This document shows positions 2,267 through 36,510 of a stretch of DNA of 47,443 nt, in pieces; position 1 is the first letter of the stretch; every line of letters begins with the position of its first letter. The position numbers were made by a program, and so were the translations under genes. The notes below the pieces were generated by a model, which saw only the letters and a list, made by a program, of their open reading frames with translations, searched no databases and was not told the origin of the DNA. This DNA comes from an uncultured Bacillota bacterium (GTDB lineage Bacteria; Bacillota_I; Bacilli_A; RF39; UBA660): NCBI GenBank assembly GCA_947165005.1, contig CAMUYN010000005.1, positions 1 through 47,443 of the forward strand, given 5' to 3'.

Positions 2267-3244
2267 CATTACTGCAATTGGAGATAAACTCTCTGCAACT
2301 TGCATCATTTCATGTGAATTCATATTTTCAGATGATATATAATACTCTACACCATTAGATATAAACTCTATTGAATTATCAGAGATAGCACCTACTGTAT
2401 CTGTTATAAATTCTGGATCACCACTAACACTCATTACTTCTTTATCTCTATTAACAGTTTCTTGTACCATAATAAATGGTGTCTCTCCTGAAAAAGTAAG
2501 TATTATCCTTTCACCATCTGATTTACTAACTTCTTCTTCACTAGATAAATATGTACCACTAGGCAAATACATCGGATAAATGGTATCATCTATTGTACTA
2601 ATTGTCTCTTTAGTTTCTTCTTCGCCTGTATTCATATTTTCATCTACATCAAAATAATTATTATTAAATACTGCGCGTTTATCTAATTCTTTAATTATTA
2701 ATTTCATTTGTAAATTATTATTTTCATCATATACTTCTATTTTTTCAAAATCTAAATTTTTATTTAAATATATCTTTTCTTTAACTAAATCCTTGTTATT
2801 TGAATAAGCAAGTTTTGTTTCAATTATATAACTATCCTTTTTCTTAATTAAGTTCATATCTTTATCATTATTAATATCTCCAAGTAATGATTGCAATATA
2901 TATATTTGTGAACTATTCTCTGGCCATCTACTTTGAAACTTATAGCTCTTATTAAGATTAGGATTTAAAACATATACTGCATCATCATTTTTTAATAGTA
3001 TTTGTTCATGATTATTCTTTTTATTAATTAAAGATACTCTATATTTATCTTTATAATAAGAAGATTCTACTTTATATCTATATGTATTATCTCCATTATA
3101 AACATCTAATTTACCTACCAAATGATATCCCTTTATATTATTAATATTCTTATTTAAATCATTCTTAATAGAAGATTCATTATACTTAGAACAACCAGTA
3201 AAAACAAATAAACCTAATAATAAAATTAAAAATATTTTTTTCAT
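2261..3244 (-). CDS. LolA-fold lipoprotein (GerS/YdcC-like)
   Basis: A 327-residue exported lipoprotein. The signal peptide MKKIFLILLLGLFVFTGCS has a clear lipobox (FTGC), so the mature protein is lipid-anchored at Cys18. The body alternates short polar strands (GYHLVGKLDVYN, YRYKVESSYYKDKYRV, LEKIEVYDENNNLQMK-type segments), as in the LolA/RseB half-barrel fold found in Gram-positive lipoproteins such as YdcC and clostridial GerS. The C-terminal part (about 225-327) is a second small domain with SGTYLSSEEEV and VEYYISSENMN, similar to the DUF4367-type segment often joined to this fold. The family binds hydrophobic or envelope ligands; the ligand here is unknown. It ends at its own terminator. 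Confidence 0.7.
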   Translation of the reverse strand: MKKIFLILLLGLFVFTGCSKYNESSIKNDLNKNINNIKGYHLVGKLDVYNGDNTYRYKVESSYYKDKYRVSLINKKNNHEQILLKNDDAVYVLNPNLNKSYKFQSRWPENSSQIYILQSLLGDINNDKDMNLIKKKDSYIIETKLAYSNNKDLVKEKIYLNKNLDFEKIEVYDENNNLQMKLIIKELDKRAVFNNNYFDVDENMNTGEEETKETISTIDDTIYPMYLPSGTYLSSEEEVSKSDGERIILTFSGETPFIMVQETVNRDKEVMSVSGDPEFITDTVGAISDNSIEFISNGVEYYISSENMNSHEMMQVAESLSPIAVMK

Positions 3245-3305
3245 AACTCACCTCTTTAAATATTTCTAATAAATTATATTTTTAATTTTATTATTTATGA
3301 ATAAA

Positions 3306-3329
3306 AAAAAGAGTTATAAAACTCTTTTT
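3306..3329 (-). terminator. Intrinsic terminator after the orphan lectin-domain fragment
   Basis: A 10-bp perfect stem (3306-3315 with 3320-3329, AAAAAGAGTT arms, loop ATAA) has T and A runs on both sides, so it could work in both directions. On the minus strand it directly follows the TAA of the orphan C-terminal fragment. It is the first convincing terminator downstream of the surface-protein gene at 4955. Confidence 0.82.
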
Positions 3330-3546
3330 ATTGTGATACTGTTATTACATATGGATCTAACTCAGTTCCACTACCTGTGATGGTTGCACTTGATGAAATG
3401 GAAACTGCAGGGCGAACGCCGCGCGAATTAGTGACATTGGAGCGGTCGATGGAGCCAAAGCGGTCCATGACGCTACCGCGGTTCACGATCCAAGCGTTGC
3501 TAGTGCTGTAAGCATCAGCAAGCCACCAATTAGTAGAAGAACTAGC
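3328..3546 (-). pseudogene. Orphan 3' end of a lectin-like surface protein carrying a second variable repeat
   Basis: This minus-strand stretch encodes 72 residues plus TAA and is clearly homologous to the last 70 or so residues of the intact gene to its right. Shared blocks are STNWWLADAY/STGWWLADAY, GVRPAVSI/GVRPVVSI, ATITG and PYVITVS. There is no ATG or usual alternative start in frame; the frame closes upstream at a TAA at 3598-3600. Between two conserved anchors (3508-3529 and 3409-3420) lies an 87-nt core (3421-3507) of about 57% GC. It is made almost wholly of NNC/NNT codons (25 of 29), unlike the AT-rich, A/T-ending codons around it. It is either the remnant of a tandem paralogue or a silent store of a variant end. 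Confidence 0.75.
3421..3507 (-). repeat. Variable repeat core in the orphan fragment
   Basis: These 87 nt (29 codons) lie between the same anchors as the core at 3858-3926. It is six codons longer. 25 of 29 codons end in C or T; the exceptions (TGG, GTG, ATG, TCG) mostly coincide with the fixed framework of the other copy. The 3' stretch GTC ACT xxT TCG xxC GGC GTT CGC CCT differs only at positions where a template adenine would be expected. Confidence 0.65.
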
Positions 3547-3764
3547 GCCTAATAAAAATAAATTTTTATTTTTTTCTGAGTAGTATGTCCCTCTAATTTA
3601 TTACATATAATAAATTAGTATAAGTATCTTATTTTTTTATCTTCTTTCTTAAGATTTTTATATTTTTATTTTCTGCCTAACGGCAGATTATTGTTTGTTT
3701 GCTTGCGCAACCAAACACTTCATTAGGTGCTTACGCTTAGGTGTGCAACATATATTTTTTTCTT
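3547..3764. other. Spacer with nested inverted repeats between the two variable ends
   Basis: This gene-free part of the 3245-3764 interval separates the intact gene from the orphan fragment. It holds two compact hairpins: 3672-3687 (TCTGCC arms, 4-nt loop, 6 bp) and 3697-3716 (GTTTG-TTGC with GCAA-CAAAC, one internal mismatch). It also holds a direct repeat of TTAGGTG at about 3724-3730 and 3739-3745. Neither hairpin is followed by a T-run on the minus strand, so they do not look like terminators. They lie 48-93 nt beyond the stop codon of the intact gene. In known diversity-generating retroelements a hairpin or cruciform just after the variable repeat aids target recognition; that role here is inference. 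Confidence 0.5.
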
Positions 3765-4955
3765 CTATTCTGATACTGTTATTACGTATGGATTTCCACT
3801 TGTTCCTTGTCCAGTAATTGTTGCACCGGCTTGAATGGAAACGACAGGGCGAACGCCGTACGAAGTAGTGACGCCGCGGCTGACCACGCTGCCATTACCA
3901 AGCACGACCCATGCGCCGGTAGCATAGTAAGCATCAGCAAGCCACCAACCAGTAGAAGAACCTTGATAGTTTGCTTTAACTTTGTTTTTGAATGTTTCAT
4001 CACTGCTTGTTGAATCACATGTTGATGTTTTTCCTCCCCATGTACATACTTCTGCTCTTGTCATTAATCTACAGCCAATGCAGTATGCTGCTGCTGCATC
4101 TGCTGCAGGACTATCTGCAAATGTATATGTTCCATCTCCATTATCTGTTCCATTTGCACTTGCATATTGTGCCTTACTTATTATCTCTGGTGTTATTATT
4201 ACATTATCTACACCTGTTCCTATAAATGATTTACTATCATATGTATAATATGCTCCATCTGTGTTTACAAATGGGTCTCCTGATGGAGTATTTCCTCCAC
4301 CATTTCCTCCTGAATTACCACTATTGCTATTTGATACTGCAGATGATGATTGTTGGAATGTTACAGTAGCTGATATGGCATCTGTTGTTAGATCTGATTG
4401 TACTAATCCTGATCCATCATTTCCTCCATATGAAGAATCTAATGTTGCTATTAAATAGAATACTTCTGTTTCTCCTGCATCTACTGTAAATGATGTTGTT
4501 AATGGTGTATTTCCTGCATTATCAGTATATAAGTTATAACTTAAGTGTGAACATGCACTTTTTGTATCATTTGTACATGTTATTGCTGGTTTAGTTATGT
4601 TAGATACTTGTGCATTATAACTTCCACCATTTTTTACATAGATAGTATATACTATTCTATCTCCTGGTGTTTTAAAACTTGCATTCCATGTATATGTTGT
4701 TGCTACATATGATGCTGATATATTTTCTGCTGTTGTTCCTCCTGTAGATATATTCGCTGCTGGTACTGTTGTTGATTGTGTTGGTTTTGGCCCATCATCT
4801 TGTGATGTAAAGAATATATCCCAAGTTGTTGATTCTACTGCTGCAGTACCATTTATATTTAGCGTTGTACTAAATGCTGCAAATGCTACTCCTAAACTTA
4901 CTACAGCAATAATTAAAACTATCACTATTGGTATTGTGATTTTTTTGTTTTCCAT
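3765..4955 (-). CDS. Surface protein with C-terminal lectin-like variable domain (likely retroelement-diversified)
   Basis: A 396-residue exported protein. The N-terminus has a hydrophobic helix (about residues 8-30) followed by AAFSTTLNINGTAAVE, the pattern of SipW-dependent signal peptides seen in TasA-like matrix proteins. A beta-rich, Thr/Ser-rich domain (about 35-205) leads to a Gly/Ser/Asn-rich hinge (about 206-230). The C-terminal domain (about 235-396) has four cysteines in YCIGC and VCTWGGKTSTC and the WWLADAY...GVRPVVSI motif of C-type-lectin/FGE-like folds that form the variable domain of diversity-generating retroelement targets. Residues 344-366 (3858-3926) are the variable core: about 61% GC, 18 of 23 codons ending in C or T. 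The gene has a strong promoter (TTGACA, 18-bp spacer, TATACT) and an AAGGAG site. The ligand is unknown. Confidence 0.85.
   Translation of the reverse strand: MENKKITIPIVIVLIIAVVSLGVAFAAFSTTLNINGTAAVESTTWDIFFTSQDDGPKPTQSTTVPAANISTGGTTAENISASYVATTYTWNASFKTPGDRIVYTIYVKNGGSYNAQVSNITKPAITCTNDTKSACSHLSYNLYTDNAGNTPLTTSFTVDAGETEVFYLIATLDSSYGGNDGSGLVQSDLTTDAISATVTFQQSSSAVSNSNSGNSGGNGGGNTPSGDPFVNTDGAYYTYDSKSFIGTGVDNVIITPEIISKAQYASANGTDNGDGTYTFADSPAADAAAAYCIGCRLMTRAEVCTWGGKTSTCDSTSSDETFKNKVKANYQGSSTGWWLADAYYATGAWVVLGNGSVVSRGVTTSYGVRPVVSIQAGATITGQGTSGNPYVITVSE
3858..3926 (-). repeat. Variable repeat core in the surface-protein gene
   Basis: These 69 nt (23 codons) lie between two stretches that are identical in the orphan copy: a 22-nt 5' anchor at 3927-3948 (TTGGTGGCTTGCTGATGC...) and a 12-nt 3' anchor at 3846-3857 (GGCGTTCGCCCT). 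Codons are of the NNY form except for a fixed framework (GCA TGG, GTG, GTG, TCG). GC content is about twice that of the surrounding gene. NNY codons are what adenine mutagenesis of AAC/AAT template codons would leave. Confidence 0.7.
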
Positions 4956-4975
4956 ATTTTTTTCTCCTTATAATA

Positions 4976-5005
4976 AGTATACCCCTCCCCATGAATTATT
5001 GTCAA
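4976..5005 (-). promoter_or_regulatory. Sigma-A promoter of the variable surface-protein gene
   Basis: On the minus strand a perfect -35 TTGACA (5000-5005) is followed by an 18-bp spacer and -10 TATACT (4976-4981). The spacer ends in GGGGAGGGG, a G-rich block that stands out in this AT-rich DNA and recurs before the gene at 6301. Transcription would start only a few bases before the AAGGAG ribosome site. Confidence 0.8.
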
Positions 5006-5109
5006 GCATTAGCCATTTATATTTACAATATAGTGATAGATAATTTTATGCAATTTTTATGAATAATTTTTAAATAATTGTCTACCATAATAATATAGAA
5101 GGAGGAAGT

Positions 5110-34498: not shown

Positions 34499-36475
34499 CT
34501 ATTGTACTAATTTTTGTGTATTTCTAATATGTGCTTTAACTTTTGAGTAATCTATTGTACTGATTTTTCCATCTTTACTAGTATCAGCTGCTGCTGCATA
34601 AGCACCATCTAATTTTAATGTGTTTCTAATATGTGCTTTGATTTTTGAATAATCTATTGTACTAATCTTTCCATCACCGTTTGTATCACCATAAAGAACT
34701 ATTTCATATTTCTTTTCTACACCATTTACTTTTACAGATATTTTTTGACCAGTAGAAATAGTTCCACTAGTAATTTCTTTATTAGATGAATCAAATACTT
34801 TTACTTCAGTTTGAGAATTATTACTCTTAATTTTATTTATTGTATCACCAATAGAACTACCAATATTAAAGCCTGATATATAGTTATCTTTTGTGTTATA
34901 TCCTGAATACTTAATTACGTCTTCAGAAGTTTCAGAAGAAGCATCTTTCTTAACAATTTTTATTGTGTATGTTCTCTTTGATCCATCTTCTGCTTGGCAA
35001 ATAATTTCTTTAATTGTTTCATTACCACTTAAGGCTACATCTCCATTACCTGTTACTTTTGCTTTTGCATGTGCTGGAGTACCGCTTATATTAACACTTG
35101 TTGTATTACTAGATACCTCTAATGTATAAGATGTTATAGATGAATCAAATGCTGGATATAAATAACCAGTTGAATAAGATATACCACTTAAGTTAGAATT
35201 ATCACTTAATGTATTTATTGAAGTTCCACCACCCATATCAGAATAAACAGGAATCTTAAATGTAAATGATAAATTAGTTATTTTTGCATTCCAATAAGAT
35301 CTATATGTTGTATAACCTTCACTATATGGTGCTTGGACATTAGCCATATATTGATGCCAATATCTTGATGATCCAACTATATTAAATTTTTCATAATAAA
35401 GTGTATCTTGATTGCTTGTTATATATCCATTAGCTATTTCAGATGTAGCACCCATTATGGATGCATAAGGGCTATCCCATCCACTTGATTTAGCATAGTT
35501 AAGTGCTCCATTATAGATAGCTTCATTACTACTTCCAGATGCACCAAAATTGAAATAATTATAGTATGTTTTTCCATCTCCACCATCCATAGAAGCAGTA
35601 AAACTACCACTATATCCTTGTTCTTGAAGAACCCTAGCTGCTAAATGAACTGGACTAACTCCATATTTTTTACCTGCTTCAACAAAAGTAGATGCAAATG
35701 TCTTTGATTGCCCATTATATGAATAACTACCTGCTAAAAATGACCCATTTAATATATTTTGTACTACACTTTCATTTTGTGATTCATTATATGATAATTG
35801 TTCAAACATAAATATACTATTGTCATCTAAGAAATTTCTTGGGTCTAAATAGTATTTTAATGCATTTCTACTTGGTGCATACCAATTAGGTTCAAATTGT
35901 ACATAAGTACCATTTGAATATGCAGCTGGATCAGTAGATAATTGATTTAAATCTCTAGTGCTTATTAAATTTTTATATATTGGATTTGATTCACCATTTA
36001 CTGCATCATCTAATGATACACCAGTATTAGATACTTCAAAATTCCAATTTGGATGTACTGCATGCATTTTAGTTAGTTTTTCAACATAACTTTCTGGGAA
36101 TCCTTTGTTTTTTAATGAATTTGCATAATTTTGATCTAAATTATATGTTTGAATACCACCTAAATAGTGAGTATAAACATATCCTTCATAAGTATAACCC
36201 CAATAATTAAATCTTATTTTAGACCAATCTCCTTCAGTTCCTATTACTTCAACTACTCTTGGTCTCCAAAGCCAAATAGTATCTCCATCACAGTCTTTTA
36301 ATCTAGGACAAACACTTTGATCTGTACTTGGGCAACTTCTAACAGATAATTCTGTTTCATCTATATATGCATAAGTATAACTACTTTGTAAAGCATAAAC
36401 ATTATACGGAATAAAAGGTATGACTAAGGAGATAAGCATAAGAAAACTTAGAAAAATATTTGCTAATTTTTTCAT
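34499..36475 (-). CDS. Secreted glucosaminidase-type peptidoglycan hydrolase with SH3 and dockerin domains
   Basis: A 658-residue exported protein. After a signal peptide (about 1-28) comes a bacterial SH3-like domain (about 35-105, TELSVRSCPSTDQSVCPRL and WSKIRFNYWGYTYEGYV). A LytD/GH73-like N-acetylglucosaminidase domain (about 180-400) contains NFLDDNSIFMFEQLSY, AARVLQEQGYSG with the likely catalytic Glu, and YNYFNFGA. A cadherin-like sandwich (about 425-515) follows. The last 60 residues are a type I dockerin: two repeats, GDTNGDGKISTIDYSKIKAH and DTSKDGKISTIDYSKVKAH, each a calcium-binding loop plus helix. I used the ATG at 36473-36475, with AGGAGAGGTGAT upstream. Dockerins bind cohesin domains. 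Confidence 0.88.
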   Translation of the reverse strand: MKKLANIFLSFLMLISLVIPFIPYNVYALQSSYTYAYIDETELSVRSCPSTDQSVCPRLKDCDGDTIWLWRPRVVEVIGTEGDWSKIRFNYWGYTYEGYVYTHYLGGIQTYNLDQNYANSLKNKGFPESYVEKLTKMHAVHPNWNFEVSNTGVSLDDAVNGESNPIYKNLISTRDLNQLSTDPAAYSNGTYVQFEPNWYAPSRNALKYYLDPRNFLDDNSIFMFEQLSYNESQNESVVQNILNGSFLAGSYSYNGQSKTFASTFVEAGKKYGVSPVHLAARVLQEQGYSGSFTASMDGGDGKTYYNYFNFGASGSSNEAIYNGALNYAKSSGWDSPYASIMGATSEIANGYITSNQDTLYYEKFNIVGSSRYWHQYMANVQAPYSEGYTTYRSYWNAKITNLSFTFKIPVYSDMGGGTSINTLSDNSNLSGISYSTGYLYPAFDSSITSYTLEVSSNTTSVNISGTPAHAKAKVTGNGDVALSGNETIKEIICQAEDGSKRTYTIKIVKKDASSETSEDVIKYSGYNTKDNYISGFNIGSSIGDTINKIKSNNSQTEVKVFDSSNKEITSGTISTGQKISVKVNGVEKKYEIVLYGDTNGDGKISTIDYSKIKAHIRNTLKLDGAYAAAADTSKDGKISTIDYSKVKAHIRNTQKLVQ

Positions 36476-36510
36476 ACTATCACCTCTCCTTTTAGTCTTA
36501 TACACATTTT

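Follow-up and report, generated by a model that had tools for sequence, protein, structure and literature searches.

Core-less targets of diversity-generating retroelements (DGRs), targets remote from the retroelement, targets built on the DUF6273 domain and diversified tip pilins are all already known. In Treponema denticola, 8 of 17 isolates have target genes, some of them truncated, with neither a reverse transcriptase (RT) nor a template (PMC4891356). Published DGR targets include DUF6273 proteins, in which the domain has a C-type-lectin-like fold and the variable repeat (VR) lies at its C-terminus (PMC11792537, PMC10743442), and diversified tip pilins have been described in Bacteroides (PMC12632263). 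A large metagenome survey itself states that RT-anchored surveys miss remote targets (PMC8144416).

The locus described here lies in a stretch of 47,443 nt from an uncultured Bacillota bacterium (the window; mean GC 0.267), and comprises an intact gene and an orphan gene fragment that each end in a GC-rich core between the same two anchors.

Two candidate variable repeats and their genes

The features of the locus were as follows, in the order in which the minus strand is read:

3765 to 4955, minus strand: intact target gene by open reading frame call, 396 aa, whose C-terminal DUF6273 domain carries the first VR (VR1)
3927 to 3948, minus strand: 5' anchor of VR1, 22 nt, TTGGTGGCTTGCTGATGCTTAC, identical to that of VR2
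3858 to 3926, minus strand: candidate VR1 core, 23 codons, 18 of them ending in C or T (0.78), GC 0.61
3846 to 3857, minus strand: 3' anchor of VR1, 12 nt, GGCGTTCGCCCT, encoding GVRP
3692 to 3717 and 3672 to 3687 (span 3672 to 3717), minus strand: two strong hairpins, about 45–95 nt past the target gene stop, z -5.3
3328 to 3546, minus strand: orphan fragment, the 3' end of a second target gene (its last 72 codons and the stop), N-terminus and start missing
3508 to 3529, minus strand: 5' anchor of VR2, 22 nt, TTGGTGGCTTGCTGATGCTTAC
3421 to 3507, minus strand: candidate VR2 core, 29 codons, 25 of them ending in C or T (0.86), GC 0.57, six codons longer than VR1
3409 to 3420, minus strand: 3' anchor of VR2, 12 nt, GGCGTTCGCCCT
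3306 to 3329, minus strand: terminator-like hairpin with a T run, directly past the orphan

A sequence-only reading of this DNA had taken the two cores for DGR variable repeats, and the anchors, lengths, codon counts and GC values that it gave were all recovered. The anchors were identical in both copies, and 43 of the 52 core codons were NNC/NNT, free of stops and set around a fixed scaffold, as in DGR targets; what had been called last exons are 3' ends, the genes being bacterial. Against a background of 0.480 C/T-ending codons, the chance probabilities of the cores were 3e-3 and 2e-5. A six-frame search of the 47-kb window for stop-free stretches of 23 codons with at least 18 C/T-ending codons and a GC of at least 0.58 returned the two cores and no other place, and the GC profile showed that the raised GC spans about 30–40 nt past the cores. 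The VR1 region reads A-W-V-V-L-G-N-G-S-V-V-S-R-G-V-T-T-S-Y-G-V-R-P, and its scaffold A-W-x-V-xxx-G...GVRP is the same as that of DGR targets in the same bacterial family. Two further characters of DGR targets were found, a VR at the 3' end of the open reading frame in a C-type-lectin-type domain, by way of the DUF6273 match, and a hairpin downstream of the VR, here present twice. Because this composition is unique in the window, and given the DUF6273 domain and the anatomy of complete DGRs in the family, both cores are very probably DGR variable repeats. The 3' anchor of VR1 is the probable initiation-of-homing side, by analogy with the family DGRs, which have the same motif in the same place.

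Adenine mutagenesis of AAC/AAT codons produces change led by codon positions 1 and 2; in ordinary divergence the third position leads. With the gap placed by best match, the two cores had 13, 10, and 5 mismatches at positions 1, 2, and 3, respectively, over 23 codons, whereas the tails past the 3' anchor had 8, 5, and 11 over 27 codons, or 24 mismatches in 81 nt (core vs. tail, p = 0.04). One copy carried an A at 17 of the 23 core mismatches in positions 1 and 2. VR1 and VR2 differ by six codons in length and at five of 23 third positions, which rules out that both were freshly copied from one template; their present sequences are not accounted for by one template shared between them.

DUF6273 (PF19789) was matched at residues 312–375 of the 396-aa protein (E = 3e-5), with a score only just above the gathering cut-off (24.4 vs. 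23.5 bits). The N-terminus (MENKKITIPIVIVLIIAVVSLGVAFAAFSTTLNINGTA...) is hydrophobic and of a kind that we take to resemble SipW-processed fibre proteins (SipW/TasA-like); it had no NCBIfam or Pfam match, including to the curated TasA/SipW-substrate models. Paralogues of the protein adjoin a SipW-type signal peptidase on another contig of the same genome (C3), the cluster of SipW/TasA-like paralogues lying at G000:C3:62410-65228. A paralogue at G000:C3:74722-75390 (L050) was 88% identical to the N-terminus of the target over residues 1–226, and was ruled out as a third target by its different C-terminus and lack of a VR. The intact gene probably encodes a chromosomal surface protein, a SipW-processed fibre subunit, for which we infer a surface-binding role. 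Its neighbourhood is core chromosome, with genes for pseudouridine synthase, RNA polymerase alpha, SecY and ribosomal proteins L2 and L3. An Rfam scan of 3200–5100 returned nothing, and the spacer at 3547–3764 was rejected as a repeat or mobile element, its other matches being only short and mostly to its AT-rich part. Elsewhere in the window, 34499–36505 encodes a protein of 668 aa in which dockerin type I and cadherin-like domains occur; genes of exopolysaccharide type (O-antigen ligase, glycosyltransferases) lie nearby.

The orphan sits about 220 nt downstream of the intact gene and, judging by its features, is clearly the 3' end of a second such target gene. It was rejected as the template itself, since its variable sites are not adenine-rich, it has the full target tail and stop, and it differs from VR1 at non-A positions. 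The orphan VR starts about 320 nt beyond VR1, and in several family loci the template starts 140–450 nt beyond the VR; the orphan is thus located roughly where relatives keep template and RT.

AlphaFold modeled the domain of the window protein itself too poorly for use (mean pLDDT 46), and the homologous target domain of G219, another genome of the family, was modeled with a pLDDT of 79 and a pTM of 0.82. Foldseek found no match to the G219 model below E 0.001. The fold statement rests on a second look with VIA-align, which matched that model to the C-terminal domain of Legionella Lcl (8q4e, Z 7.4), to Treponema TvpA (2y3c, Z 6.5) and to many C-type lectins, Z values of 5–7 being middling. The model of this relative's domain supports a C-type-lectin-like fold, as was also reached for DUF6273 DGR targets in PMC10743442.

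Complete, dispersed and decayed elements in the family

RT loci were fetched from the same family, and repeats were sought with mismatches on the adenines of one copy. Template/VR pairs with adenine mismatches were obtained in most sampled loci, including those of the same-genus genomes G007 and G010. In the templates, AAC/AAT codons follow one another in a fixed frame (in G219, for example, GCTTGGAACGTGAACAACGACGGTAACGTTAACAACAACAACGTC...TACGGTGTGCGCCCAGAT), and the paired VRs have a GC of 0.44–0.70 in loci of 0.23–0.32. The window has in common with these AAY-templated elements the layout of VR, tail, stop and hairpin, and a tail of similar length with a strong hairpin past the target stop was seen in most family DGRs with a template nearby. 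Across 14 family targets, W, W-x-V, G and GVRPV were invariant columns. An accessory protein like MutS domain I also occurs in the family DGRs, separately in G007 (L013 2862-3281) and as a part fused to the RT C-terminus in G085 (L134 2196-3728). DUF6273/GVRP ends are common in the family, occurring in 252 of 291 genomes, and many are low in GC and resemble ordinary genes. RT was present in 48 of the 57 genomes with at least 10 such ends and in 117 of the 234 others (p = 2e-6); the nine high-copy genomes without RT are possible additional examples of core-less genomes.

Trans action is real in the family, as seen in G219 (five contigs, 95% complete). The VR end of its DGR target had 39 matches distributed over all five contigs, and a prepilin-type leader was found at the start of 23 of the 24 matches examined. 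The core is at L126 and the targets at L179-L202; one template was found, and its VR end is borne by about 36 dispersed prepilin-like genes. This template matched prepilin-like genes on four contigs at non-adenine positions, with 19–26 adenine changes each. When the VRs were compared to the single template with codon gaps allowed, non-adenine mismatches numbered zero in L179, L187, L188, and L189, one in L180, two in L126 (the VR next to the core), three in L192 and five in L183. About eight VRs were thus fresh (0–5 non-adenine mismatches), and the rest formed a decay series of up to 32, along which GC fell (Spearman -0.82). Fresh VRs had a C/T-ending fraction of 0.85–0.90 and a GC of mostly 0.53–0.67, compared to 0.57–0.81 and 0.28–0.39 in the most decayed ones, and the low-GC ends of G219 fit decayed VRs. 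L187 required a two-codon gap against the template, so whole-codon differences between a VR and its template do occur. In composition, the cores of the window lie near the fresh end of this series, which suggests recent writing.

The loss of a core is real in the family as well. In G191 (L055), the target, two VRs and the template are present, and in place of the RT gene there is a 171-aa ORF, which by our reading is a MutS-domain-like start joined to an RT-like end through an internal deletion; L055 1483-3186 and 611-1126 contain a prepilin-like target with two VR-bearing domains, the template and the internally deleted RT gene. In G242, several dispersed VR-like ends have a common non-adenine skeleton (L153, L156, L160, L162, and L164), the RT at locus L167 loses its reading frame shortly before the C-terminus, and no template matching the dispersed VRs was found near either RT. 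Further ends in G242 are low in GC, as if decayed.

Presence or loss of the core

The sequence-only reading had also proposed that a template and RT elsewhere in the genome diversify the gene in trans, and neither was found in the assembly (33 contigs, 88.6% complete). No RT was detected in it by an RVT_1 search, which matched 165 of 291 sampled family genomes (57%), or by a profile of five family DGR RTs, which matched G007 and G010, two of its own sources; most same-genus genomes were without a DGR RT in the profile search. The MutS-domain-like accessory protein of the G007 DGR had no counterpart in the genome. No third copy was found in the assembly of the 5' anchor with up to three mismatches or of the 3' anchor with one mismatch allowed, and a template-like consensus protein matched only the two known places. 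As the assembly is 88.6% complete, the core is absent from the assembly, which is not proof of its absence from the genome. In viral contigs, five anchor-pattern matches all proved unrelated on reading, and TTCGNNCGGCGTTCGCCCT had four matches. A stricter anchor pattern gave a sole match in genome contigs, which was haloarchaeal and taken as chance. The C-terminal protein searched against phages, and the orphan DNA against plasmids, had no homologue at the sensitivity used.

The reading preferred here, with some confidence, is that the two genes are leftover targets. A template RNA rich in AAC/AAT codons would have been copied by an error-prone RT misreading adenines, and at the GGCGTTCGCCCT side its cDNA would have taken the place of the 3' end in C-type-lectin-like DUF6273 genes, resulting in C/T-ending codons without stops around the fixed scaffold. 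The orphan would be the 3' remnant of the second target, and the core was most likely lost, perhaps by the deletion that truncated this target. With both outcomes given the same weight beforehand and about one chance in five that a present core would escape the assembly, loss is favoured, and the fresh composition pulls towards presence. The larger weight given to leftover targets, the smaller one to an unassembled and active core and the rest to other readings are judgements and not computed posteriors.

A possible alternative to leftover targets is that the genome retains a core, either in sequence missing from the assembly or on a mobile element, which goes on diversifying the gene in trans. 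The incompleteness and fragmentation of the assembly leave room for it, the VRs are compositionally fresh, and the action of one core on dispersed targets is visible in G219 and has been published for T. denticola, cyanobacteria and Thiohalocapsa (PMC4891356, PMC7517822, PMC10907252). RT is also found in 57% of the sampled family genomes and in 48 of the 57 rich in the domain, and G007 and G010, of the same genus, carry complete DGRs. However, RT, template, MutS-like accessory and third anchor are all missing from the assembled part, most genomes of the genus lack a DGR RT, the two VRs do not fit one current template, and the place beside the target holds a truncated target and not a core.

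Another reading, that a DGR target from a phage or another mobile element delivered the C-terminal cassette to a genome that never had a DGR core, is improbable. DGRs of the same genus do adjoin mobile-element genes (recombinase and relaxase-like, by ORF reading), and the surroundings of the VR depart in base composition from the remainder of the gene, but the gene lies in a core chromosomal region with a ribosomal-protein operon and its N-terminus has the 88% identical paralogue on another contig. Moreover, the phage, plasmid and viral-contig searches returned no homologue at the sensitivity used and no anchor match that was relevant on reading, and G219 and G191 show DGRs with cellular pilin-like targets. 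It is very improbable that no DGR was involved and that the two ends are ordinary paralogues of the DUF6273 domain, shaped by diversifying selection or gene conversion: DUF6273/GVRP ends are widespread in the family and often ordinary in appearance, but C/T-ending codons with a GC of about 0.6 in 27% GC DNA, exact anchors beside so divergent a tail, mismatches concentrated at codon positions 1 and 2, and low-GC ends in G219 that fit decayed VRs all argue against it.

Comparison with known systems

The reading of the window locus as leftover targets may belong to a wider picture, which is put forward tentatively. In it, large numbers of scattered surface-fibre genes (type IV prepilin-like in G219, SipW/TasA-like in the window) would be written in trans by chromosomal DGRs of the family. 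Older, unrewritten copies would form a graded archive, and the variable pili or fibres of a small genome would thereby be a repertoire that renews itself; the window would be a small or leftover branch of this system. The G219 array exceeds the multi-target DGRs of Treponema (7) and Trichodesmium (18 loci), and a limited literature search found no counterpart of such an array of prepilin-like targets. It is a more interesting result than the window locus: with one template, several fresh dispersed VRs and a graded decay series, trans retrohoming and the ageing of VRs are directly testable in one small genome. The window locus indicates that codon composition and scaffold are enough to recognise DGR targets where a bin lacks RT and template.

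Among described systems, the T. denticola isolates (PMC4891356) resemble the window in their VR-bearing targets, some truncated, without RT or template, which were read there as leftovers of lost cores. They differ in that the VRs could be compared to the template of a sister strain, and in a target domain of the FGE-sulfatase type rather than DUF6273. The family DGRs of G219 (L126), G191 (L055), G085 (L134), and G007 (L013) share the DUF6273-type or related end with W...W-x-V...G...GVRPV, the GC-rich VR in AT-rich DNA, GVRP at the 3' anchor and, in most, the hairpin past the stop, whereas their template and RT are present (the RT internally deleted in G191) and their N-termini are type IV prepilin-like or other, compared to SipW/TasA-like in the window. 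The remote variable proteins of cyanobacteria, including the 18 TR/VR loci of Trichodesmium (PMC7517822, PMC8867640), are likewise dispersed targets away from the core with a VR at the 3' end of a C-type-lectin domain, but there the core is present and matched, and the proteins are linked to signalling. DUF6273 targets of Faecalibacterium prophage and gut phages (PMC11792537, PMC10743442) carry the VR in the same domain with a C-type-lectin-like fold; they are phage proteins with a complete DGR in the phage, whereas the window gene is chromosomal. Compared to these systems, what is new is this member and its combination with a SipW/TasA-like N-terminus.
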